From assembly GCF_032714615.1 (NCBI RefSeq), contig NZ_JAWDKA010000006.1, positions 1 to 64,000 on the forward strand: a stretch of DNA of 64,000 nt, read 5' to 3'. A program made the position numbers and the translations under genes. Below are positions 2,060-57,371 of the stretch, in pieces; position 1 is the first letter of the stretch, and every line of letters starts with the position of its first letter. The notes under the pieces were generated by a model. The model did not search any database, had not been told where the DNA came from, and saw nothing but the letters and a program-made list of their open reading frames with translations. The stretch is from Methanorbis furvi. Its GTDB lineage: Archaea; Halobacteriota; Methanomicrobia; Methanomicrobiales; Methanocorpusculaceae.

Positions 2060-2917
2060 TTAATATTGCTTGTTTGAACGTGCCGGCGAAAGAAAAACCC
2101 GGGTCGATCTGGCAATAAGACCCGGCTCGCCGCAGACAAATTTTTCTGAGTCACGCAGTCCTTCGGCAAGGGCGACGAGTCTGCCCTCTTCGGTGATCAC
2201 TGCCACGCTCTGTCCACGCACAAATTTGTCGCACCGGATTACCCCAACTCCCGCAAGTACTGCCCCGTGAGAAACTGCGTCGGCAGCACTTGGCCGGACA
2301 ATGATTTTTGGAATGTCTGCGATTGCTTCTTCGGGCGGCAGGATCATGGCACGGATTTTTTCCTCGTCACCGTTCTCGATCGCGTCACGAACTTCGTGGA
2401 GCGTGTGCGTATTTTCAACAGAAAATCCTCCGGACTTTGTCCGCCGCAGTTCGATCATCTGTGATCCGCATCCAAGTATTCTGCCGATGTGGACGCAGAG
2501 TGATCTAATATATGTGCCTGCTTCGCAGCGGACACGTATCAGCACCAGCCTGTCCTGCATGTCAAGAAGCTCAATGCGGTGAATCACGCGAATGCGGAGC
2601 GCCCGCTTCACCGCCGAGCGTCTCGGCGGTCGCTGATAGACGCGGCCGGTGAACTCTTTTACTGCCGCCTCCACTTTTTCGCGAGGGATGTCTGCATGCA
2701 GACGAAGACATGCCACGTACTCTTTTTCATGCAGTAATAATAGTGGGGCAAGGCGGACTGCTTTACCAAGCATCACGACAAGAACTCCTGAGACCATAGG
2801 GTCAAGAGTTCCCGAGTGGCCTACCTCGCTCTTCAGCATATCACCAACCCATGCCGCAACCTGATGGCTGCTTGGTCCCCGCGGCTTGTCCACCAGAAGA
2901 ACGCCGGTGTAGCTCAT
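2060..2917 (-). CDS. truB: tRNA/rRNA pseudouridine synthase Cbf5/TruB
   Basis: This 285-residue protein has the TruB catalytic motif HSGTLDP at about 34-40, with Asp39 as the expected nucleophile, a second TruB motif around EAGTYIRSL, and a C-terminal PUA-like RNA-binding region from about 200. In archaea Cbf5 is the catalytic subunit of H/ACA guide RNPs and can also make Psi55 in tRNA. It is somewhat shorter than many archaeal Cbf5 proteins because the N-terminal extension is small. Its start overlaps the stop of hemD by 4 bases (ATGA), so the two are translationally coupled. Confidence 0.9.
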   Translation of the reverse strand: MSYTGVLLVDKPRGPSSHQVAAWVGDMLKSEVGHSGTLDPMVSGVLVVMLGKAVRLAPLLLLHEKEYVACLRLHADIPREKVEAAVKEFTGRVYQRPPRRSAVKRALRIRVIHRIELLDMQDRLVLIRVRCEAGTYIRSLCVHIGRILGCGSQMIELRRTKSGGFSVENTHTLHEVRDAIENGDEEKIRAMILPPEEAIADIPKIIVRPSAADAVSHGAVLAGVGVIRCDKFVRGQSVAVITEEGRLVALAEGLRDSEKFVCGEPGLIARSTRVFLSPARSNKQY

Positions 2918-3609
2918 TGGCTGCTCTCCAGATAGGTGTTCAGAGCGTTCAGCGTTCCTTCCAGAGATCCGTCACCGACAATTTTCGGTTCAACTCCCCC
3001 TGCCCGCATGGCGTCAGCGGTGATATCACCAATGGCTATTGGAAGAATGTTCTGCATGGGGGGGAGCAGCGCCATCTTGTACGAGTTTGCACTGGTAAAC
3101 AGGACTGCGTCGACTTCGTCGAAGTTCAGCAGTTCATTGGTTGGTTCAAGACCATAGCATCTGTACTCAAACGCCATGCCGCCCGCATCCTCGATCGCAT
3201 TGATCAGGCCCGGGTTCGGTACATCCGCCCGCGGAATACCGATACGTTTTCCACTGATCCATTCACCAAGATAGGGTACAAAGTCGCGCGAATAAAATGT
3301 CGGAAGAGTTTCTGCTGCAATCCCTGCATCATGCAGAACTTTTGCGGTCTGCGGACCAATCGCGATCACCCGCGAATTTTTTGTGATGTCTGGATGTAAG
3401 AGCGGGGCGATTTTTTGCGCAGGAAGGGCACTGGTGAAAAATATTGCATCGAACTCACCATCAGCTGCTGCAAGCACAAATGTCTGAATCGTACTGCTTC
3501 TGATCTCCGCACGAAGCGGCGAGACAATTCTGCATTCATGTCCGTATTTTTTGCAGAGAGCAGCGTCTGCCGAACCTTTTTCGGCGAGACGGGTGATCGC
3601 AAGTAACAT
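2914..3609 (-). CDS. hemD: Uroporphyrinogen-III synthase
   Basis: HemD cyclises hydroxymethylbilane to uroporphyrinogen III, the precursor of siroheme, corrinoids and coenzyme F430 used by the mtr and mcr enzymes of this window. The 231-residue product has the weakly conserved two-domain HemD pattern: DAIFFTSALPAQ near the middle of the first half, a VIAIGPQTAKVLHDAG segment, then AVLFTSANSY and PIAIGDITADAM in the second half. The ATG at 3609, followed by MLLAITR, is the best start; the frame remains open upstream to 3651. HemD sequences diverge quickly, so the call rests on the pattern of short motifs. It is read together with truB. Confidence 0.82.
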   Translation of the reverse strand: MLLAITRLAEKGSADAALCKKYGHECRIVSPLRAEIRSSTIQTFVLAAADGEFDAIFFTSALPAQKIAPLLHPDITKNSRVIAIGPQTAKVLHDAGIAAETLPTFYSRDFVPYLGEWISGKRIGIPRADVPNPGLINAIEDAGGMAFEYRCYGLEPTNELLNFDEVDAVLFTSANSYKMALLPPMQNILPIAIGDITADAMRAGGVEPKIVGDGSLEGTLNALNTYLESSQ

Positions 3610-43889: not shown

Positions 43890-44654
43890 ATGGCATACAA
43901 ACCACAGTATGGACCGGGAACGTCCAAGGTTGCAGAAAACCGCCGCAACCAGATGAACCCGAACGTGAAGCTCGAGAAGATTCGCAGCGTCACTGATGAG
44001 GACCTTGTCCTTATTATGGGACACCGTGCACCAGGACAGGCATACCCGTCCGCACACCCACCACTGGCAGAGCAGGGAGAACCTGACTGCCCGATCAGAA
44101 AGATCGTGAAGCCGACCGAGGGAGCCAAAGCTGGTGACCGCGTCCGCTACATCCAGTTCGCAGACTCGATGCTGAATGCACCGTGTCAGCCGTACCAGAG
44201 AACCTACCTCGAGATGTACCGCTACCGTGGTATTGACCCGGGAACACTCTCTGGCCGTCAGATCGTTGAGTGCCGTGAGCGTGACCTTGAAGGATACGCA
44301 CGCGAGCTCGTTGAGACCAACCTCTTCGACCCAGCAACCTGTGGTATCCGCGGTGCAACCGTGCACGGCCACTCCCTGCGTCTCGCAGAGAACGGTATGA
44401 TGTTCGATATGCTCCAGCGCTGTATCCTCGACGCAGACGGTATCGTCAAATACGTTAAGGATCAGGTTGGTGTCCCACTTGACCGCAAAGTTGCCGTTGG
44501 CAAGCCGATGGACGCAAAGTGGCTCAAGGACAACACTACCATGTTCAACTCTCTCGTCGGCACTGCATTCCGCAGTGACGCAGAGTACGTCAAATACGTC
44601 CAGCGCATCCACGCACTTCGTACCAAGTACGGATTCATGCCCAAGGAGGCCTAA
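43890..44654 (+). CDS. mcrG: Methyl-coenzyme M reductase, gamma subunit
   Basis: The 254-residue McrG starts MAYKPQYGPGTSKVAENRR and contains IMGHRAPGQAYPSAHPPL (about 43-60) and RYRGIDPGTLSGRQIVE, typical of the family. It completes the active-site funnel with the alpha and beta subunits. A GGTGAAC sequence before the ATG is the ribosome-binding site. Codon use is as strongly biased as in mcrA. Confidence 0.98.
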   Translation: MAYKPQYGPGTSKVAENRRNQMNPNVKLEKIRSVTDEDLVLIMGHRAPGQAYPSAHPPLAEQGEPDCPIRKIVKPTEGAKAGDRVRYIQFADSMLNAPCQPYQRTYLEMYRYRGIDPGTLSGRQIVECRERDLEGYARELVETNLFDPATCGIRGATVHGHSLRLAENGMMFDMLQRCILDADGIVKYVKDQVGVPLDRKVAVGKPMDAKWLKDNTTMFNSLVGTAFRSDAEYVKYVQRIHALRTKYGFMPKEA

Positions 44655-44657
44655 ACT

Positions 44658-46364
44658 ATGGCAAAAGTAGAGAAGACCCAGAAACTTTTCCTTGATGCAC
44701 TCAAGCAGAAGTTCCCCAAGCAGGACGTCGAGTCCACCACCACTGAATTCTACAAGTTCAACGGTGTCCGTCAGTCCGCACGTAAGCTGGAGTTCATGAA
44801 AGAGAACGAGTCCATCGTCGCAAAACGTGGAATCTCCATGTACGACCCCGAACGCTGCCACCTTGGTGGTATCCCGATGGGTCAGCGTCAGCTCATGACC
44901 TACGAAGTCTCCGGAACCGGAACCTTCGTTGAGGGTGATGACCTGCACTTCGTTAACAATGCAGCAATGCAGCAGTTCTGGGATGATATCCGCAGAACCG
45001 TAATCGTGTCCATGGACATGGCACACGCAACCCTGCAGAAGCGTCTTGGCAAGGAAGTCACTCCGGAAACTATCTCCGAGTACCTCCACATCGTCAACCA
45101 CGCAATGCCAGGAGGAGCAGTCGTTCAGGAACACATGGTTGAGACCCACCCGGCTTTAACCGATGACTGTTACGTCCGTGTCTTCACTGGTGACCAGGAA
45201 CTCGCAGACTCTATCGAGTCCCAGTTCGTTATTGATGTCGAGAAGCTCTTCCCGAAGAAACAGGCAGAGGCACTTCAGGCAGCAGTAGGCAAATCCCTGT
45301 GGCAGTGTGTCCACATGCCGACCATTGTTGGCCGTACCTGCGATGGTGGAACCACCTCCCGCTGGTCTGCAATGCAGATCGGTATGTCCTTCATTGCAGC
45401 ATACCGTATGTGTGCTGGTGAAGCAGCAGTCGCTGACCTGTCCTTCGCAGCAAAGCACGCTGGTGTCATCAACATGGCATCCCACCTGCCGGCACGCCGT
45501 GCACGTGGACCGAACGAGCCAGGAGGAATTCTCTTCGGCAACTTCGCCGATATGATCCAGGCAGACCGCCTGAACCCGAATGACCCCGCAAAGTCAACCC
45601 TTGAGGTTGTCGGTGCAGGTGCAGTCCTCTTCGACCAGATCTGGCTCGGCTCGTACATGTCCGGTGGTGTCGGTTTCACTCAGTATGCAACCGCAGCATA
45701 CACCGATAACATCCTCGACGACTTCGTCTACCACGGTATGGACTACATCCACGACAAATACAAGATCGACTGGAAGAACCCGAACCCGAAAGACAAAGTC
45801 AAAGCAACCCAGGAAGTTGTCAACGACATCGGTACTGAAGTCAACCTCTACGGTATGGAACAGTACGAACAGTTCCCGACCATGCTTGAGGACCACTTCG
45901 GCGGTTCCCAGCGTGCATCCGTTCTTGCAGCAGCATGTGGTACGACCACCTCTATTGCAACCGGTAACTCCAACGCTGGTCTGAACGCCTGGTACCTGTC
46001 CATGCTTATGCACAAGGACGGATGGTCCAGACTTGGATTCTTCGGCTACGATCTTCAGGACCAGTGCGGTTCCGCAAACTCTCTCTCCATGAGACCTGAC
46101 GAGGGTTGTATTGGTGAGTTCCGTGGACCGAACTACCCGAACTATGCAATGAACGTCGGTCACCAGGGCGAGTATGCAGCAATTGCAGCAGCAGCTCACC
46201 TCGGCCGCGGCGATGCATGGGCACTGTCCCCGCTTATCAAGATCTGTTTCGCAGATCCGGCACTCACGTTCGACTTTGCAAACCCGAGAAAGGAGTTCGC
46301 AAAGGGAGCTATCCGCGAGTTCATGCCAGCAGGCGAGCGCTCGCTTATCATCCCGGCACAGTAA
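44658..46364 (+). CDS. mcrA: Methyl-coenzyme M reductase, alpha subunit
   Basis: The 568-residue catalytic subunit binds F430, coenzyme M and coenzyme B. The [11 protein letters not shown] motif places Gly463, Asp468 and Cys470 at the positions that carry thioglycine, didehydroaspartate and S-methylcysteine in the Methanothermobacter enzyme (445, 450, 452). [13 protein letters not shown] holds the region around the N-methylhistidine, and [16 protein letters not shown] is the standard primer region. All catalytic motifs look intact. It starts 3 bases after mcrG and ends the operon. Confidence 0.99.
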
Positions 46365-46750: not shown

Positions 46751-47066
46751 ATTAATATACCTCACGGGGCAAACAAGTTATTGTCCACACTTTGTACTCC
46801 ATTCTTTAGAGTGGTAACGTTATTCGAACATTCACGCTTATCTCACGTGTGGGTTAAATCGTGAATTGTCCACGAGTCGAACAGACTCCTGAGACGTCTG
46901 CACGGATCTATTTCGTGCGGCTACTTGAGACGCATCCTTCGTTTCAGTTCCACACTGAAACACAACGTTCGTTTCCGAACTGTCGGAAACGTCAGCCTGA
47001 TGCCTGTGGGGCGTCAGGTTTTGCACGAAAAAGTTTGTGCACGCTAAACTCAAGGGAGAATCTTAC
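46751..47066 (+). promoter_or_regulatory. Promoter and hairpin-rich leader of the mtr operon
   Basis: ATTAATATACC (46751-46761) is a TATA box; transcription should start near 46785, leaving a leader of about 280 bases. It contains four clear hairpins in a row: GAGTC/GACTC (46874-46888), GTTTCAGT/ACTGAAAC (46941-46961), GTTTCCGA/TCGGAAAC (46971-46990) and CCTGATGCC/GGCGTCAGG (46996-47018, one G-T pair). A weaker TGCAC/GTGCA stem follows them. The ribosome-binding site GGGAG lies outside the stems, about 11 bases before mtrE. Confidence 0.55.
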
Positions 47067-47963
47067 ATGCAAGAAATTATCATCGGCATTGGAGTAACTG
47101 CCCTTGCGGGAGCTCTCGCAGCGGTTGCAGGTGCAGCCGAGGATACTGAGTCCAACATCGGTTCACAAGGTGACCCGAACTCTCAGGTCCAGCTTGCACC
47201 TCAGATGGGTTATACTCACCGTATATACAACAAAGCAGTATCCGGTGAACCCCCAGCATATACGCTCTGGGTAACCCTTGCTTGCGGTGTTGCATGGGCA
47301 TTCATTATGATGAATGTTAATGCAGTACTGGCAATCATCTTCGGTACAGTTCTCGCAACCTTTGTGCAGGGTATCTATGCTACCACTGCATACCTTGGAA
47401 GAACCGCAAGTCTTTCCAAGTTCGGACAGCCGGTCTTTATTGATGTCTTAAAATCAGTAACGACTGTAACCATGGGTCACGCATTCGTTGCAATCTTCAC
47501 TACGGTAACCGCTTGTTACCTGATGTCAACAGTGCTTCACCACCCGTTCGCACTTCCGCTTCTCGGCGTGGTATGGGGTCTCGCTCTTGGTGCAGCAGGT
47601 TCTGCAACCGGAAACCCGTACTATGGTAAGGAGCGTCAGTACCAGAACCAGAAGTTCGGTGCTGGTGTGCCAATCTCTGCATCCGGTAACATCGTTCGTT
47701 ACGCAGAAGCCGGTCAGAGAAGCTCTATTGACAACGGTTTCTTCACCGCAAAACTCGGCGGACCAGCATCCGGTCTCTGCTTTGGTTTAATTGTGTTCTT
47801 TGAACTGTGGCGTACCGTTCTCTTTGAGCCTATCGCAAACGGATGGGGAGCAGTAGTTGCAGGTGTTGTTATCATCCTCATCTTCATGATCATCGATCGC
47901 TATGTTGAGGTATGGGCACGCAAGAACTACGGACCCTACACCGCGGCAGCTACGGAGGCCTAA
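47067..47963 (+). CDS. mtrE: Tetrahydromethanopterin S-methyltransferase subunit E
   Basis: MtrE is one of the large membrane subunits of the Mtr complex, which moves the methyl group from H4MPT to coenzyme M and pumps sodium ions. The 298-residue protein has about six membrane helices and AGAAEDTESNIGSQGDPNSQ (about 21-40), conserved in MtrE. ATG 47067 (MQEIIIGIG) is chosen over the frame start at 47037. It is the first gene of the operon. Confidence 0.97.
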   Translation: MQEIIIGIGVTALAGALAAVAGAAEDTESNIGSQGDPNSQVQLAPQMGYTHRIYNKAVSGEPPAYTLWVTLACGVAWAFIMMNVNAVLAIIFGTVLATFVQGIYATTAYLGRTASLSKFGQPVFIDVLKSVTTVTMGHAFVAIFTTVTACYLMSTVLHHPFALPLLGVVWGLALGAAGSATGNPYYGKERQYQNQKFGAGVPISASGNIVRYAEAGQRSSIDNGFFTAKLGGPASGLCFGLIVFFELWRTVLFEPIANGWGAVVAGVVIILIFMIIDRYVEVWARKNYGPYTAAATEA

Positions 47964-47966
47964 ATT

Positions 47967-48827
47967 ATGAGCGCAATCGCAGCAAAACCGGCAGGCAATG
48001 CAGGAGCATTCCAGCCTGTCGCATCCGTAATCGCAATTATCCTTGCAGTCATCTTCATTGGCGTCGCCTACCTCCTCGGTAACACCGGGATCCTTTCAGG
48101 CGGAGCAATGGCCCCGATGATGACCCTCGTTGGCATCATCGTTGGTGCAGCATTAATTGCATTTGGTGTCCACTTCGTCCCGGTCGGCGGTGCGCCGGCA
48201 GCAATGGGACAGTCTCCGGGTATCGCAACCGGTGTCGCAATGCTTGCGACCGGTGCAGGTCTCGCAGGACTGTTCGGAGGAGCATGGGCAGCAAGTTTAG
48301 GCTTTGGAGTCGCTCTCGCCGGTGGTGCAATCGGCGGCGGTTTAATGATGGCAATCACCTGTTTAATGGTGAACATCTCCTATGTCTACGGCATGGGTAT
48401 CCCCGCAGCATCCGGTAAGGTCGCAAAAGACCCGATCACCGGTGACTCTCAGGCTGAGTATAAATCCCAGGGAACCGAAGGTCACGGTCTTCCGTTCATC
48501 TCCTACGTTGGCGGTGTTATCGGCGGTCTCTTCGGCGGTCTTGGCGGAACACTCATCTACATTCAGCTTCTGAACTTCTACAATGCAAGTTTCGCAGCTG
48601 TCGGAATCGTTGGCGAAGACGCCCCGGTTCTCGCAGTAGGCCTTGCAGGCATCTTTGCAATCGGTATGTTCCTTGTTATCGCAGTACTTTCTGCATACAA
48701 CATTACCGGAACCATTGAAGGCCCGCACGACCCGAAGTTCAAGCGTTTCCCCCGTGCAATCGTCGCAGCAATCTGTGCAAGCGGTATCTGCGGACTTGTT
48801 GCACTGCTGGTGGTGGCAGTACTCTGA
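47967..48827 (+). CDS. mtrD: Tetrahydromethanopterin S-methyltransferase subunit D
   Basis: This 286-residue membrane subunit has about six to seven helices and a conserved loop DPITGDSQAEYKSQGTEGHG (about 153-172). MtrC, D and E form the sodium-translocating core of the complex. It follows mtrE after 3 bases. Confidence 0.97.
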   Translation: MSAIAAKPAGNAGAFQPVASVIAIILAVIFIGVAYLLGNTGILSGGAMAPMMTLVGIIVGAALIAFGVHFVPVGGAPAAMGQSPGIATGVAMLATGAGLAGLFGGAWAASLGFGVALAGGAIGGGLMMAITCLMVNISYVYGMGIPAASGKVAKDPITGDSQAEYKSQGTEGHGLPFISYVGGVIGGLFGGLGGTLIYIQLLNFYNASFAAVGIVGEDAPVLAVGLAGIFAIGMFLVIAVLSAYNITGTIEGPHDPKFKRFPRAIVAAICASGICGLVALLVVAVL

Positions 48828-48837
48828 GGTGTAAAAA

Positions 48838-49695
48838 ATGTCAGTAAAAGTTGAAGCATCACACGATGGCATTCCACACAACAAGGTTATGGCTATGGGC
48901 CTTATCCTTGCACTGGTCTCCCTTTACATCGCAGTCGCCGGCGCATTTGCAGGATATGATTATCTTGCATTCTTCGGTGGAATTGCAGCTGTTGGTGCCC
49001 TTATCTGGGGTAACAGCACAATTAAGAAACTCTGCAGCTACGGTATCGGTACCGGCGTTCCGTCCGCGGGTATGCTCGCATTCGGTTCCGGTGTTATTGC
49101 AATGCTGTTCGCAGCAAAACTCGCAGTAATCAGCCCGTTCCTTGTACCAATCGCAGGATTAGTCATTGCACTGATCGTCGGTCTCGTTCTTGGATGGATC
49201 TCTAACTCCGTTCTGAACATGAAGATCCCGGTCATGACCCGCAGTATCGCCGAGCTCGCAGCAGTCGGTTCCGTCGCCCTTATGGGCCTGACCGTTGTTG
49301 CAACCGGTCACGTCTCCTTCTCGGAGATCACTGCGTTCAACATCGACATCCTCGGCATCACCGTGAGCTTCTATGATGTGTCCTACATTGGTGCAGGCAT
49401 CATTGCAGTCTCATTCATGCTTGGTGCAATCGCACTGCAGCACCCCTTCAACGCCTGCCTTGGTCCGGGCGAGAAGCAGGACAGAACCAACATGCTCGCT
49501 ATTGAGTGTGGATTCCTTTCCATGATTGTCATGGCAGTCATTTCCTTTGCATTCGTTTCCCTCGTTGCAGCCTGGATCTCTCTTGTCATCGGACTCATCG
49601 GATGGTTCGTGTCCTATAAGAAGTACTTCGCCTTATCCAAGCGCGATGCAGCAGCATGGCTCGACGCAAAGCCGTTCAGCGATGCGGAGGAGTAA
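48838..49695 (+). CDS. mtrC: Tetrahydromethanopterin S-methyltransferase subunit C
   Basis: The 285-residue membrane subunit has several helices with GYGIGTGVPSAGMLAFGSG-type glycine-rich segments and the conserved LQHPFNACLGPGEKQDRT loop near residue 200. GAGGTG precedes the start. Confidence 0.97.
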   Translation: MSVKVEASHDGIPHNKVMAMGLILALVSLYIAVAGAFAGYDYLAFFGGIAAVGALIWGNSTIKKLCSYGIGTGVPSAGMLAFGSGVIAMLFAAKLAVISPFLVPIAGLVIALIVGLVLGWISNSVLNMKIPVMTRSIAELAAVGSVALMGLTVVATGHVSFSEITAFNIDILGITVSFYDVSYIGAGIIAVSFMLGAIALQHPFNACLGPGEKQDRTNMLAIECGFLSMIVMAVISFAFVSLVAAWISLVIGLIGWFVSYKKYFALSKRDAAAWLDAKPFSDAEE

Positions 49696-49714: not shown

Positions 49715-50008
49715 ATGGGATATGTATTAGTATTACCTGAATTTGGCCTCGTAGCTGACCCTATCGCAGGCATTGTCACGACCGCAGGTATCTCTTACCA
49801 GCCGGTCATTGATCAGGTAGCTGAACTTGAAAAGATTGCAGACGATCTGGTTGGAATGCTCTCCGGAGAAGGAAACTTCCTCAACAGCTACCCCGGACGT
49901 GAGAAGACTCTCCTGTACGCAGGAACGGTTACCTCGCTCTGGTATGGTCTTGCTGTCGGACTGTTCATCGCCGGCCTGATTGCAATCGCGTTACTTGTTG
50001 GGATGTGA
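49715..50008 (+). CDS. mtrB: Tetrahydromethanopterin S-methyltransferase subunit B
   Basis: This 97-residue protein has a soluble N-terminal part ([16 protein letters not shown]) and one C-terminal membrane helix. It starts after TTTAGGAGGAATC, the best ribosome-binding site in the operon. Confidence 0.96.
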
Positions 50009-50013
50009 GATAC

Positions 50014-50748
50014 ATGGCAGATAAGAAATCACCAGCAAGCGGATGGCCGATTGTTCAGGGTGACTACCACACCGGTGACGCAAACAGCCCAGTCGCTGTT
50101 ATCACCATGGGTTCCCACCTTGACGAGACGGCAATCTGCGCTGCAGGAGCTGCCCTCGCAGGATCCTGTAAGACCGAGAACCTCGGTATTGAAAAGATTG
50201 TCGCCAACATCATCTCAAATCCGAACATTCGTTTCGTTCTCCTCTGTGGTACTGAAGTGAAAGGTCACCTCAGTGGTCAGAGTATCGAGGCGATGCACAA
50301 GAACGGTGTTGACGGCGGTAAGATTGTCGGTTCCGGCGGAGCAATTCCGTTCCTCGAGAACCTGACGGCAGAACACATCAAGCGGTTCCAGGAACAGGTT
50401 GAGATCGTTAACATTATGGAGAGCGAAGACGTCGGTCAGATCTCTGCAAAGATTAACGAGCTTAAATCCAAAGATCCCGGAGCATTCGGTGCTGACCCGA
50501 TCGTCATCCAGATTTCTGACGATGACGGCGGATCTTCCGGAGGCGCAGAAGCCGGCGAGGAAGAGCCTCTGACCGGTGAGATGGCACTCATCACTGCCCG
50601 CATGAAATATATCCAGATGATGGTTACCGACATCGGTTACCGCACCAGATTCTCTTCCGGTCTCTACGGAGGTAAGATTGAGGGTCTGATGATTGGTCTT
50701 ATCGTGTCCTTCGTCATCCTCGGTGCTCTCTTCTATGGAGTGATGTAA
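50014..50748 (+). CDS. mtrA: Tetrahydromethanopterin S-methyltransferase subunit A (canonical copy)
   Basis: MtrA carries the corrinoid that receives the methyl group from MtrH and passes it to coenzyme M. The 244-residue protein has a cytoplasmic Rossmann-like cobamide domain with the cobalt-binding His85 in [10 protein letters not shown], a linker, and a C-terminal membrane helix ([20 protein letters not shown]). ATG 50014 is chosen; the in-frame GTG at 50005 overlaps the mtrB stop. Residues 1-172 are almost identical to the copy fused to MtrG at 50954. Confidence 0.97.
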
Positions 50749-50750
50749 AA

Positions 50751-50942
50751 ATGGCAGGTTCAATTATCAGAATGGCTGCCATCGATAAGATGGTAGATGA
50801 CATCAGATACAAGGGACAGATTCTTGCCCGTACCCACAAAGTCGAGTCCGCAATTATGGACTCCGGTCTTGTCGGATTTGGCGCAGGTCTTGTTCTTGCC
50901 CTTGTTATGATCCTTGTCCCGGTACTGGTGCTGATGCCCTGA
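50751..50942 (+). CDS. mtrF: Tetrahydromethanopterin S-methyltransferase subunit F
   Basis: This small protein of 63 residues has a soluble head (IDKMVDDIRYKGQILARTHK) and one C-terminal membrane helix. It sits between mtrA and the fused mtrA-mtrG gene; the normal order is mtrA-F-G-H. ATG 50751 follows the mtrA stop by 2 bases. Confidence 0.95.
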   Translation: MAGSIIRMAAIDKMVDDIRYKGQILARTHKVESAIMDSGLVGFGAGLVLALVMILVPVLVLMP

Positions 50943-50953
50943 GGTGAAGAAGA

Positions 50954-51691
50954 ATGGCAGATAAGAAATCACCAGCAAGCGGATGGCCAATTGTCCAGGG
51001 TGACTACCACACGGGTGACGCAAACAGCCCTGTTGCTGTTATCACCATGGGTTCCCACCTCGACGAGACGGCAATCTGCGCTGCAGGAGCTGCCCTCGCA
51101 GGATCCTGTAAGACCGAAAACCTCGGTATTGAAAAGATTGTCGCCAACATCATCTCAAACCCGAACATTCGTTTCGTTCTCCTCTGCGGTACTGAAGTGA
51201 AAGGTCACCTCAGTGGTCAGAGTATCGATGCGATGCACAAAAACGGTGTTGAGGGCGGTAAGATTGTCGGTTCCGGCGGAGCAATTCCGTTCCTTGAGAA
51301 CCTGACGGCAGAACACATTAAGCGGTTCCAGGAACAGGTTGAGATCGTTAACATTATGGAGAGCGAAGACATCGGTCAGATCTCTGCAAAGATTAACGAG
51401 CTCAAAGCAAAGGATCCCGGAGCATTCGATGCTGATCCGATCGTCATTCAGATCTCTGATGATGCAGGCGGAAGCGGTGCCGGTGCAACGGTTGCCAGTG
51501 CAAACCCGCAGTTCCTTGAGATTGAAAAGCGTCTTGACGCGATCGAGAAGAAGATCGAGTTTACGGACGCTGAAATCGCAATGCGTGTCGGAAGAAAAAT
51601 CGGTCGTGACATCGGTATCCTCTACGGTCTCGTAGCAGGATGTATTGCCTTTATGGTAATTCTGATGTTACTCCCGCAGTTATTGATGTAA
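50954..51691 (+). CDS. mtrG: MtrA cobamide domain fused to MtrG
   Basis: The gene stands where mtrG is expected but encodes 245 residues instead of about 75. Residues 1-172 repeat the MtrA cobamide domain with only a few changes (for example Glu to Asp in SIDAMHK, Val to Ile in EDIGQ), including His85 in [11 protein letters not shown] short Gly/Ala linker follows. Residues about 184-245 are Mtr[36 protein letters not shown] and one membrane helix. No separate mtrG is present. GAGGTG precedes the ATG. A second corrinoid-carrying subunit in the complex is therefore likely. The frame is intact with no sign of decay. Confidence 0.93.
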
Positions 51692-51705: not shown

Positions 51706-52725
51706 ATGTTCAAGTTCGAAAAGGAACAGCAGGTCTTTGACTTTAACGGAACTAAGATTGGTGGACAGCCCGGAGAGTACCCGCGTGTTCTCGGCGCATC
51801 CATCTTCTACAACAAACACGAGTGTGTTCTTGATGATCACACCGGTAAGATCGACAAGGCGAAAGCAGAAGCACTCTGGAACCGCTGTCAGGAACTGACG
51901 GACGAGACCGGAAACCACTTCTTCCTTCAGATCATCGCCGAGCACGGAGAGGCATTCGAGTCCTACTTCCAGTGGTTCGACAGCATCGACAACAAGACTG
52001 CATTCCTGATGGACTCTTCTGCACCGGCAGCACTTGCCCATGCAACGAAGTACGTCACGGAAGTTGGTCTTGCAGACCGTGCAATCTACAACTCCATCAA
52101 TGGATCCATTGCACCGGAGAACATCCAGGCACTTGCAGAGTCCGACGTTGACTCCGCAATTGTTCTTGCGTTCAACCCGGGAGACGGTTCTGTTGCAGGC
52201 CGTGAGAAAGTTCTTTCTGAGGGTGGTGTTGCAGGTCAGGCAAAGGGTATGATTCAGATCGCAGAAGAGTGCGGTATTAAACGCCCGATTCTCGACACTG
52301 CAGCAACTCCGCTCGGTCTCGGCTCTGCCGGTTCTTTCCGTGAGATTCTTGCATGCAAGGCAATCCACGGTCTGCCGACCGGTGGTGCATACCACAACAT
52401 GACGGTGTCCTGGACCTGGCTGAAACGCTGGAGAAAGAATATCCACGAGCAGTACAAGGGTAAGGATGTCCTTGCAGAGCAGATGTTCCACCACCACTAC
52501 GGTGGTATCGAGGGTATCCGCCAGATTGCCTGGTCATCGCCCGACATTGGCTGTAACATCATGGCAATGACCCTTGGTGCAGATCTTATCATGTTCGGTC
52601 CGATTGAGAACATGGAAGGTATCGCAACCGCAGCAGCATTCTCCGACATTGTCCTGTCCGAGGCCTTAAAGGAACTCGGCGGCGAAGTCGCAGACCACGA
52701 AGGCCCGCTGTACAAGCTGGTCTAA
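51706..52725 (+). CDS. mtrH: Tetrahydromethanopterin S-methyltransferase subunit H
   Basis: The 339-residue soluble subunit MtrH takes the methyl group from methyl-H4MPT and gives it to the MtrA corrinoid. It is a TIM-barrel protein with GGQPGEYPRVLGASIFYNKH near the N-terminus and MFHHHYGGIEGIRQIAWSSP and DIGCNIMAMTLGADLIMFGP in the second half. It is the last gene of mtrEDCBAF(A-G)H. Confidence 0.97.
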   Translation: MFKFEKEQQVFDFNGTKIGGQPGEYPRVLGASIFYNKHECVLDDHTGKIDKAKAEALWNRCQELTDETGNHFFLQIIAEHGEAFESYFQWFDSIDNKTAFLMDSSAPAALAHATKYVTEVGLADRAIYNSINGSIAPENIQALAESDVDSAIVLAFNPGDGSVAGREKVLSEGGVAGQAKGMIQIAEECGIKRPILDTAATPLGLGSAGSFREILACKAIHGLPTGGAYHNMTVSWTWLKRWRKNIHEQYKGKDVLAEQMFHHHYGGIEGIRQIAWSSPDIGCNIMAMTLGADLIMFGPIENMEGIATAAAFSDIVLSEALKELGGEVADHEGPLYKLV

Positions 52726-53087: not shown

Positions 53088-55247
53088 ATGCGAGTCAGCG
53101 AGGGAAATCTGACCCAACAGTACTACACGGATTATCTGACGATTCTTGCCGATGAGATGCTCTCTCACTCCACAGACGATGCCGTCCGCTTCGGAGTGCA
53201 CGAAAACATTGTGTTTCGCAATCTGTTTCTGCACCGGATGAGTGTTGACGGCGGATTCCATGCGAGAGTACTTGCTGCCATTCTTCAGCAGCCTGACGAC
53301 AGCCGTGTCCTGCTGGACCTTCTCCATGCTGCAGAAAATATCAGTGACGACGTTCTGCCGGTTCTGGACTGGCTGAAACAGGAGCATGCCTCTGCAGTGG
53401 AACACGGGGAGTCTTCCCGGAAACTTGCTCTGACTGCTTTGATCAGATCCTACATCTCAGGAACAAATCAGGCTGCAGAGATCATTGCCTCCTTTGGTGA
53501 CACGCGTCCCGAGAGCTGGTGGCAGTTCAAAACCCGTGCCATCACCACCTCGGAAGTGCGCAATCCTGACATGTACTTCGGCGTCGGCCGCCGTCCGTTC
53601 TGGCACGAGTTTCCGCTCGACCGGTATGCGGCTGTTCGTGCAGGCGTTCCCTCGCTTCCTCCGCAGGACATCTACGACTGTGTGGTCTGCATTGCCGGAG
53701 CATGGTTCTCATCCCTGACCCGTGAAGAGATGATCACCTGGCTGAACATGCCCCAGCCCACCCTTGCCGAGTGGGATTCCCTCTGTTCTCCCCTGCTGGA
53801 CTGCGAGACACCGGACGCGGCACTGTCCACCGCGAACTGGCTGTATGCCTCGGGAAACAATGAGCCTGCCCTTGATCTCTACGCAAATATCGCTCTCGCA
53901 TTCCCCGGAACCCCTGCCGAGACAGTGTCGTTTGAACTGATCGGCACCATTCTCAGGCGTTCCGGAGACTTTGACAACGCATTTGAGGCATACAAAAATG
54001 CCTTCATGACCTCCCGTGGCGGTCCTGCATACCAGACTGCAATCGGCCTGAAAAATCTCTGCGAAGTCGGTGAGGATTTAGGCGAGGACATGAGCGAGTA
54101 CTATACCCGTATTGCAGGTATCGCCGCAATGCTTCCGGTCACCGACAAACTGCGGCTGTATCTGGAACTCGCTGCATCGTGTCGCAGACGCCATGCCTAT
54201 GAGGACGAGTATCATCATCTCGAACTGATCATCGGTGAAGAAGGCGGCGACGAGGAGCTTGTTGACACGGCAATGTCGCGTCTCTCAGAGATGAACTCGC
54301 ATCTGACCGCCGACGGAAGACCGGACGCTCTCTCTCTCAAAGCATTCGATGACGAGATTGAGTCCTCTGTTGCTGCCACCCGCGGTACTGCCGCCTACTT
54401 TGGATTTGATCCCTCTTGTGCCCTTGACTGGTACTGCCGTTCCTCTTCACCTGAGATTTTGCCGCTTCAGTTTAAGGCAGCGGTTGCGGCAGGAGTTGAC
54501 GCAACAGCATATGCGCAGACGTCTGCTGAAAAAACCGTTCTTCTTGCAGCAGCTGATGCACCATCCGCACTGATTGCCGGAGAACTGAACAAGTCAGTCA
54601 CCAGTTCCTGGCAGAACGGTGCTGATATCTCTGCGGTTCTCGATCCGGTTCTCCCGCATCTCAACGCCGAAAAACGTTCAGCTGTTTTCGCGGATCTGAC
54701 CAACAGATCTACCCGTGATGACGAGCGTGCCGTTGTCTGCTCTGCGGTATCGCGTGCACTGCTTACTGCGGGTTTTGCCGACGAAGCGCGTTCGATGCTT
54801 CGGGCAGCACTTCGTGCAAACCCTGGCCGTGAGACGCGGTCCCGCCTTTTTGCCGAGCTTGGATGGCTGGAGCACGAGTCTGGTCTCTACGCCGACTCGG
54901 TTGATGCCTGCCGGTCTGCACTGAAGATCAATGATCAGTTCCCTGCGGTATGGGCATGCATGGCACGTTCCCTCGTCTGCATGGAAAAGTATGATGATGC
55001 ACTTCTGGCTGCATCACGTGCGGTTGTGCAGAACCCTGCGAACGAGTCGTACCAGTACTTGCGTTCCGCTCTGCAGATCGTAGCTTCATCGCCGGTGAAC
55101 CCGGCAGCCGACCGGCTGTTTATCCTGCCGGAACCCGGATTCCTTGAGGCTGCGGCTGCTGAGTACATGATCCAGAAAACATCCTCATGCCCGCCCGGGG
55201 TGTGGGATGCCGCAACCCTTGAGGACGTCGCCTCCATGAGGATTTAG
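53088..55247 (+). CDS. Large TPR-like helical repeat protein
   Basis: The 719-residue protein is soluble, with no signal peptide, and almost entirely helical. TPR-type units can be seen around residues 240-310 (ALSTANWLYASGNNEPALDLY, LRRSGDFDNAFEAYKNAF) and 580-680 (ALLTAGFADEARSMLRAAL, AELGWLEHESGLYADSVDAC, CMEKYDDALLAASRAV). The N-terminal 230 residues match no family I know. It probably acts as a scaffold. A TATA-like CATACATAG about 30 bases upstream suggests a leaderless mRNA. It is followed after 6 bases by a surface receptor-like gene, so the two are probably functionally linked. Confidence 0.72.
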   Translation: MRVSEGNLTQQYYTDYLTILADEMLSHSTDDAVRFGVHENIVFRNLFLHRMSVDGGFHARVLAAILQQPDDSRVLLDLLHAAENISDDVLPVLDWLKQEHASAVEHGESSRKLALTALIRSYISGTNQAAEIIASFGDTRPESWWQFKTRAITTSEVRNPDMYFGVGRRPFWHEFPLDRYAAVRAGVPSLPPQDIYDCVVCIAGAWFSSLTREEMITWLNMPQPTLAEWDSLCSPLLDCETPDAALSTANWLYASGNNEPALDLYANIALAFPGTPAETVSFELIGTILRRSGDFDNAFEAYKNAFMTSRGGPAYQTAIGLKNLCEVGEDLGEDMSEYYTRIAGIAAMLPVTDKLRLYLELAASCRRRHAYEDEYHHLELIIGEEGGDEELVDTAMSRLSEMNSHLTADGRPDALSLKAFDDEIESSVAATRGTAAYFGFDPSCALDWYCRSSSPEILPLQFKAAVAAGVDATAYAQTSAEKTVLLAAADAPSALIAGELNKSVTSSWQNGADISAVLDPVLPHLNAEKRSAVFADLTNRSTRDDERAVVCSAVSRALLTAGFADEARSMLRAALRANPGRETRSRLFAELGWLEHESGLYADSVDACRSALKINDQFPAVWACMARSLVCMEKYDDALLAASRAVVQNPANESYQYLRSALQIVASSPVNPAADRLFILPEPGFLEAAAAEYMIQKTSSCPPGVWDAATLEDVASMRI

Positions 55248-55253
55248 TGTGAT

Positions 55254-57371
55254 ATGAAACAGGTAGTTGCCCTTCTTCTGATAGCTCTCACACTGGTGGT
55301 CGCATTTGCCGCCCTCACCGGAGGAGGTGCTGATGATCCGCTTCCTTCTCCTCCGGTGCCCGGTACAACCCAGCATCGCGAGACCATCGGCGTACTTTTG
55401 CCAAACGACTCTGTGGTCGGCGATCAGATCAGAAACGGTATTGATACCGCCTACCTTTTGCAGGACACCGCAACCCGTCCGTCGCTTGTGTATCTGAATG
55501 GCACACAAAATGTTCCTTCTGACATGGTGGCTGTCATTACCGCGACCGATGCTCTCAGCGAAGAGTGGGACGCGGCGTTTGAATCGCCTGATATTGTGCA
55601 TCTGGCGGTTGCGTCCCCGGGTTACGCCGCATCCGCTCCGGAAGGTGTTGTCACGTTCAGTACTCCGCCGTCGTATGAGATTGCCTCACTGAAGTCGCTT
55701 CTCCGGCAGCATGATGCAATCGCGGTGCTTGGTCCTGACACTTTGTATACGGCTGCGTATATTCAGGCGCTTGAAGATGCTGTCAGCGGGCATGTTGTTT
55801 CCGGAACCTACTCATCACCGTCCGGCGAGCTTGCCAGTCTCCGCTCTCTTCTTGATCAAAAACCAGGTCTTTTGATCATCACCGGCGGATCGGATGTTCC
55901 GGCGGTTGTTGCAAAGGCCCGCGAGTTTGGTCTGACCGGTCCAGTTCTGGTTTCTTCGTGGGTAGGGGAGGATGCAGGCACAATGAATGATCCCAGAATG
56001 GAAGGGGTCTACACGGCAAAGAGGATCTCTGATATCTCGTCTCATCCGTTTTACAATGTCTACTCTGTCAGATTCGACACTTCTGCATCCGTGTATGCTG
56101 CAGAAGGCTATGATGCGATGATGACTTTGTCGCGTCTGGTGCCACAGAGCAACGGGAATACTGTCTACATTTCAGGATGGTACATGGACAAGACCTATGA
56201 GGGTGCTGCGGGTTCTTATGAGTTTGATATCAGCGGCTGCGGGAGAATTCTGATGCAGATTGCACAGTTCAGGTCAGGATCTGTGGTTCTGGTTGATACG
56301 TATGCGCCTCCGCCGTCAGAGGTGGTGATTGGTGTCTACGGCAATGCTGAGGTGGTCCGAGGGGCAACTGCGGCCGCCGAGTTTATCAATACGGCGAGCC
56401 AGATCTCTCTTCCCGGAGCGGCAACGAGCGGTATTTCAGGCATCTATGGTGCGAAGGTTCGCATTCTGCCGCTTGAGTCCGGTTCTCCGGTTCCAAGTGA
56501 TGTTGTCGCTGTTGTCGGGGATATGGAGGGTGTTGTTACGAACCGGCCCGCGGTCCAGACGGTGTCGGGCGGTGAGTATCGTCCCGGTGACTGGTCGGTG
56601 TCCCTTGCACCGGATGAGGAGGAGGGTATTGTTCAGCTGATCGGTATTCTTGATTCAAGAAAGGTATATGGATCACATTCTTCGAACATCACGCTGCTGG
56701 CGCCCGAAGGTGTTGTTCTGTCTTCGTCTGCTGCATCCCTGCTGGAGGATCACGGCTACTCTGTTGAGACCGTCTCTTACTCGCTTCCTTTGACCAAGGC
56801 CGGGGCTGATGTTCTTTTCTCCGGTCAGAACCGTCCCGGAGAAGTTATTCTGAGTTTCCCTGCCGGTGCAGAGGATCTGACGCTCCTTTTGGATGCGGCC
56901 CGCATGTCAAACTCCCTGCCTTCGGTCTGGTATGTGTCAGGTGATGTGATACTTGGGGATCCGAAGGTTGTTCAGAGTGTTCAGGTCTATGATTATCTTG
57001 CAGCGTCTGATATCTGGTCCTCGGAGCTTGGCAAGTCAAAACCTCTGGTCAGGGATGTGTCCCTGTTTTACTCGAAGGTTTATCCTGGTCAGTCGATGAC
57101 CGGTGTTTCGGCAAGATCGTTTGAGGCGGTGGTGATGCTTGCGGATGCGATGAGTGTGTCAGGTTCTACTACGCCGGCGGCGGTTGGTTCGGCGCTGAAG
57201 AATCTCCGGTACTCAGTCGATCAGAGTATTTTCTCAGGGTCCGGGATATCCTTTGATGAATCGGGGAATGTCGTTGGTCCTGAGACGATGCTTCTTCAGA
57301 GTCAGGGAGGGACGATGAGGGTTGTTCTTGGTGCGGGTGATCTGATCTCTGTGGCAGAGAGACAGATGTAG
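55254..57371 (+). CDS. Surface protein with two tandem periplasmic-binding-like domains
   Basis: The 705-residue protein begins with a hydrophobic N-terminal segment (KQVVALLLIALTLVVAFAA) that is a signal peptide or membrane anchor; no lipobox Cys follows. Residues about 40-350 look like a type I periplasmic-binding (Leu/Ile/Val-binding) domain: ETIGVLLPNDSVVGDQIRNG, then AIAVLGPDTLYTAAYIQAL and GLTGPVLVSSWVGED. A second, weaker copy starts near 360 (VVIGVYGNAEVVRGATAAAE). No ABC permease or kinase is adjacent. It is likely an extracellular sensor or binding protein working with the TPR-like protein; the ligand is unknown. Confidence 0.7.
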   Translation: MKQVVALLLIALTLVVAFAALTGGGADDPLPSPPVPGTTQHRETIGVLLPNDSVVGDQIRNGIDTAYLLQDTATRPSLVYLNGTQNVPSDMVAVITATDALSEEWDAAFESPDIVHLAVASPGYAASAPEGVVTFSTPPSYEIASLKSLLRQHDAIAVLGPDTLYTAAYIQALEDAVSGHVVSGTYSSPSGELASLRSLLDQKPGLLIITGGSDVPAVVAKAREFGLTGPVLVSSWVGEDAGTMNDPRMEGVYTAKRISDISSHPFYNVYSVRFDTSASVYAAEGYDAMMTLSRLVPQSNGNTVYISGWYMDKTYEGAAGSYEFDISGCGRILMQIAQFRSGSVVLVDTYAPPPSEVVIGVYGNAEVVRGATAAAEFINTASQISLPGAATSGISGIYGAKVRILPLESGSPVPSDVVAVVGDMEGVVTNRPAVQTVSGGEYRPGDWSVSLAPDEEEGIVQLIGILDSRKVYGSHSSNITLLAPEGVVLSSSAASLLEDHGYSVETVSYSLPLTKAGADVLFSGQNRPGEVILSFPAGAEDLTLLLDAARMSNSLPSVWYVSGDVILGDPKVVQSVQVYDYLAASDIWSSELGKSKPLVRDVSLFYSKVYPGQSMTGVSARSFEAVVMLADAMSVSGSTTPAAVGSALKNLRYSVDQSIFSGSGISFDESGNVVGPETMLLQSQGGTMRVVLGAGDLISVAERQM

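Follow-up and report, generated by a model that had tools for sequence, protein, structure and literature searches.

The window analysed here is a stretch of 64,000 nucleotides from Methanorbis furvi (contig NZ_JAWDKA010000006.1, positions 1 to 64,000 of the forward strand), taken from an assembly of 1.85 Mb in 26 contigs that is 95.8% complete. It contains an mtr operon with the gene order mtrE-D-C-B-A-F-(A–G)-H, all on the plus strand. The operon begins with mtrE (47067–47963; Pfam PF04206, E 1.3e-128), whose start is the in-frame ATG that we chose inside a listed open reading frame of 47037–47963, and continues with mtrD (47967–48827; PF04207, E 3.6e-91), mtrC (48838–49695; PF04211, E 7.6e-67) and mtrB (49715–50008; PF05440, E 2.9e-32). 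The next gene, mtrA-1 (50014–50748; PF04208 at residues 4–172, E 1.1e-84; NCBIfam TIGR01111, 331.7 bits), encodes a cobamide domain (residues 1–172, with His85) and its own C-terminal anchor helix. It is followed by mtrF (50751–50942; PF09472, E 4.5e-22), by an MtrA–MtrG fusion gene (50954–51691) and by mtrH (51706–52725; PF02007, E 3.7e-95). Judged by the fusion protein, the closest named relatives are Methanocorpusculum petauri (93%) and M. parvum (89%), and the host fits Methanomicrobiales. Directly upstream of the operon, on the same strand, lie mcrG and mcrA (methyl-coenzyme M reductase; 43890–46364), assigned solely by sequence recognition. Downstream of mtrH, the region 53088–57371 holds two large open reading frames of 719 and 705 amino acids, one with weak similarity to TPR repeats and the other without an NCBIfam match.

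An MtrA–MtrG fusion in place of mtrG

Downstream of mtrA-1, the gene that separates mtrF from mtrH had been described in preliminary form as a second MtrA cobamide domain (residues 1–172, His85 kept) joined in frame to the whole of MtrG (about residues 184–245). Pfam confirmed both parts in one frame: PF04208 matches residues 4–172 (E 5.4e-85) and PF04210 residues 184–238 (E 1.1e-22). In the window, the MtrA domain corresponds to codons 1–172 (50954–51469) and the MtrG part to 51503–51688, with the PF04210 match at 51503–51667 (82 bits). MtrG is thus present but not whole, as about eight N-terminal profile positions of the free-standing MtrG family are replaced in the fusion (the match spans profile positions 9–63 of 64). 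An AlphaFold2 model, built from an alignment of only 13 sequences and with a mean pLDDT of 73, showed a domain folded to about residue 167, a low-confidence linker (168–191) and a single long helix (185–244). This helix, together with the PF04210 match and matches to the MtrG chains 9qtq_S and 8q3v_G in the PDB, indicates that the C-terminal part is the stalk/transmembrane helix sequence of MtrG. The cobalt-ligating histidine, His85 (His84 in Methanothermobacter marburgensis), is present in both window copies and invariant in both copies of 56 genomes. GAGGTGA, a likely ribosome binding site, stands ahead of the fusion ATG. A search of the host's own genome recovered just two MtrA domains and a single MtrG, each of them within the mtr operon, and no free second mtrG was found elsewhere in this 95.8% complete assembly; the sole MtrG of the genome lies in the fusion, which agrees with the earlier proposal that mtrG has been replaced. 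The fusion scores above the NCBIfam cut-offs of mtrA (TIGR01111) as well as mtrG (TIGR01149), and automatic naming may label it MtrA, so that MtrG appears to be missing.

The fusion is real, standard for Methanomicrobiales and already known. Wang et al. (G3, 2015; PMC4632066) described a second mtrA of Methanomicrobiales, mtrA-2b, which is fused with mtrG and sits between mtrF and mtrH, with eight syntenic orthologues and Methanocorpusculum labreanum among the species. All features of mtrA-2b are found in the window gene, namely a complete MtrA cobamide domain, no MtrA anchor and an in-frame MtrG. The two are alike in domain order, in the mtrF–mtrH slot and in the near identity of the MtrA domain, and there is no difference of substance, the window gene coming from another species of the same genus. 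Comparable arrangements occur elsewhere. The mtrA-2a gene of Methanococcales and Methanocella arvoryzae (PMC4632066) also places a second MtrA domain, homogenised with mtrA-1, on a small stalk subunit, but its partner is MtrF rather than MtrG, its operon position is another one and its origin is separate. MtrA is likewise fused to a small stalk subunit in the EDCB[AF]FGH operons of TACK archaea, Methanoliparia and ANME-1 (PMC9982363, 2023), a study that gave the frequent fusion of mtrF and mtrG as its reason for omitting both from trees.

Distribution of the fusion

The preliminary description had suggested searching the MtrG homologues of Methanomicrobiales for the fused domain, and we found the fusion throughout the order. 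An MtrG match was present in 163 of 199 genomes of the order, one per genome, and among the matches listed the large majority lie in open frames of about 240 amino acids or longer. The matches begin at profile position 5–11, indicating that the first MtrG residues are replaced. Nearly all fusions across the order share the junction motif NPQFLEIE and the same operon position. As the loci of named relatives with this architecture were found using the fusion as the query, their uniformity is less informative. No free MtrG was seen among 12 short-frame genomes that we fetched, in all of which a contig end or an N-run interrupts the sequence (G184 has an additional frame break close to a contig end); many of the short-frame entries beyond these 12 begin no more than a few hundred bases from the start of their contig. 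In a phylum-wide sample, MtrG frames outside the order measured 56–143 amino acids among the matches listed. Such frames are too short to hold an MtrA domain, suggesting that MtrG is a free-standing protein in the other orders of the sample. A class-wide search sampled the same order only and added nothing. Two Methanoperedens loci (L082 and L083) that matched most of the query length were rejected as fusions, as mtrA, mtrF and mtrG are separate and ordinary in them. Outside the order, one contig (G233, C212, 7124–7650) has two adjoining MtrG matches, a possible tandem mtrG duplication. In addition, a contig carrying a Methanocorpusculum mtr operon (L009, JAQVAY010000069.1) has been placed in a metagenome bin labelled 'Bacilli bacterium' and is mis-binned.

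Near identity of the two MtrA domains

The two MtrA domains of the window (50014–50529 and 50954–51469) are 95.3% identical in DNA and 97.1% identical in protein over 170 codons, close to the 95% or so previously judged by eye. They differ at 24 of 172 codons, at 18 synonymously and at 6 not. Identity in the 15–90 bases upstream of the two ATGs is at background (27–37%), and similarity drops off past codon 174 or thereabouts into unrelated tails, much as had been noted for the sequence after codon 172. The shared stretch is therefore the cobamide domain alone. At third codon positions, the window copies are more similar to each other (0.876) than to their M. petauri orthologues (0.76 and 0.74), indicating that the window pair was homogenised after the split from M. 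petauri.

The preliminary description had left two explanations for this near identity, recent duplication or continuing gene conversion. If mtrA had been copied onto mtrG recently and independently in this species, gene conversion would not be needed to account for domains that are 95.3% identical in DNA. Such a duplication would also agree with the window pair having no significant internal conversion tract, the differences being scattered (longest-identical-run permutation test, p 0.83). However, relatives across the order share the operon position and the junction motif, so the fusion must be old although its domains look young, and many independent identical events would be needed, as Wang et al. 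(PMC4632066) also argued; we consider this explanation very improbable. Gene conversion best accounts for young domains in an old fusion whose junction is shared. A tree of both MtrA-domain copies from 56 genomes, of the kind proposed earlier, points the same way, as most copies pair by genome. The copies were sisters in 38 genomes, in 30 of them with an SH-aLRT support of at least 95, and the window pair was supported at 99. A single clade of all mtrA-1 was rejected by the AU test. Among relatives, the M. petauri pair has a significant tract (a run of 119 of 225 variable sites, reached in 0 of 20,000 shuffles), and several other genomes were also significant in the same test. The case for conversion in the window pair is drawn from the tree and from relatives that do have a tract, M. 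petauri among them, and not from a tract in the pair itself. Judged from these sequence comparisons, recent duplication is the less favoured of the two earlier suggestions: the order-wide junction and the genome-wise pairing speak for gene conversion. This agrees with Wang et al. (PMC4632066), who attributed the near identity of the MtrA domains to long-lasting gene conversion using trees and GENECONV, and with a genome-wide study of 2018 (PMC6053082), which recovered mtrA among genes with recurrent concerted evolution.

Lineages with lapsed homogenisation

In 18 of the 56 genomes the copies did not form sister pairs. Fifteen of these genomes fall into four groups: Methanospirillum and its kin (6), Methanomicrobium (2), gut Methanocorpusculum (5) and M. 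parvum with UBA424 (2). The other three (L048, L063 and L065) had no resolved placement in the tree. Within the four groups, copies mostly sort by gene type, and group means of third-position identity were 0.59–0.83 for paralogues versus 0.66–0.96 for orthologues, with orthologues higher in every group. In the gut Methanocorpusculum group, the fusion copies form a clade, but no such clade is resolved for the mtrA-1 copies. Together, the sorting by gene type and the higher identity of orthologues indicate that these lineages went through a period in which homogenisation lapsed. The lapse in Methanospirillum, Methanomicrobium and two Methanocorpusculum groups is a modest refinement of the 2015 account; that study could not have seen it, as its species list, in the part accessible to us, holds one Methanospirillum, one Methanocorpusculum and no Methanomicrobium. 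Beyond that report, our sequence finding adds only these lineages and denser sampling.

Collapsed-looking operons and the question of assembly artefact

Three metagenome bins (L050 (UBA275), L024 and L058) showed an operon of the form E-D-C-B-(A–G)-H, at about 2500–3230 in each, that lacks the mtrA anchor and mtrF, and a search of the rest of these three genomes found no MtrF either. We rejected them as examples of a real reduced operon. The full operon is present in a relative (L053) whose domain is 98% identical, L050 combines an upstream flank of the mtrA-1 type (95%) with a tail of the fusion type (100%), and in one of the three genomes another MtrA piece is cut at a contig end. The pattern is therefore best read as a repeat collapse; most likely the assembly merged the two near-identical MtrA domains, a real deletion by recombination being the less probable alternative. 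Collapsing two near-identical domains yields just this pattern, which makes it a trap for others.

The same bins raise the question whether the window operon could itself be an artefact, with mtrA repeated or misjoined during assembly. Near-identical repeats of 510 bases do disturb assemblies, and many related contigs end or have N-runs inside these genes. The usual assembly error, however, removes a copy and does not add one. The differences between the window copies are mostly synonymous and are accompanied by different tails, the same structure has been described for complete genomes (PMC4632066), and two single-contig congeners (G042 and G054; 1.76 and 1.80 Mb) carry both copies in order. 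An assembly-made duplication, against which the preliminary description had cautioned, can thus be given almost no weight.

A model for the fusion in the Mtr complex

We put a probability of about 0.9 on the reading that the window holds the standard Methanomicrobiales operon, in which an old fusion, homogenised by conversion, has replaced MtrG and would provide extra cobamide carriers. A duplicate of the mtrA cobamide domain would have joined mtrG at its 5' end ahead of the diversification of the order, and gene conversion, as supported by the trees and by PMC4632066, would since have kept the two MtrA domains near identical in most lineages. In canonical Mtr of M. marburgensis (8Q3V) and Methanosarcina mazei (9QTQ), the MtrA and MtrG chains are homologous to the two halves of the fusion, but MtrG is free and there is one MtrA cobamide domain per protomer. 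The solved complex is a trimer in which three MtrA and three MtrG helices stand side by side in the stalk with their N-termini cytoplasmic, and a disordered linker carries the cobamide domain of MtrA between MtrH and MtrCDE. With its folded domain, low-confidence linker and helix, the AlphaFold2 model suggests that MtrG acquires, through the fusion, a linker and a domain of this kind. By homology to the solved MtrG chains, the fused protein would occupy the place of MtrG in the central stalk, and its MtrA domain would lie on a flexible linker at the cytoplasmic side, beside ordinary MtrA. If assembly follows Mtr(ABCDEFG)3, the sequence and the published trimeric structure would give up to six mobile cobamide domains per trimer instead of three, which would take up methyl groups at MtrH and deliver them to the MtrCDE sodium pump. 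Our search of the literature accessible to us returned no proteomic or biochemical papers on the fusion and no protein-level evidence of its being made, loaded with cobamide or present in Mtr at full stoichiometry. Mtr is a central energy-conserving enzyme of methanogenesis, and both solved structures come from species without the fusion. A natural complex with double the mobile B12 domains would be useful for testing whether carrier number limits the pump.

Instead of simply adding carrier capacity, the second domain might be functionally specialised, for example by serving mainly one half-reaction or by binding a regulator. The stalk anchor differs between the two copies, and in Methanospirillum and its kin (L027, L033, L036, L042, L049 and L055) and Methanomicrobium (L047 and L052) they sort by gene type at 80–83% DNA identity. 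We regard specialisation as unlikely, and slightly more doubtful still is the idea that the MtrG-tethered domain does a job different from that of the MtrA-tethered one, with Methanospirillum-type lineages as the place where the work divides. In most lineages, that of the window included, the domains are instead kept almost identical in protein, and 70 residues, His85 among them, are invariant in each copy set.
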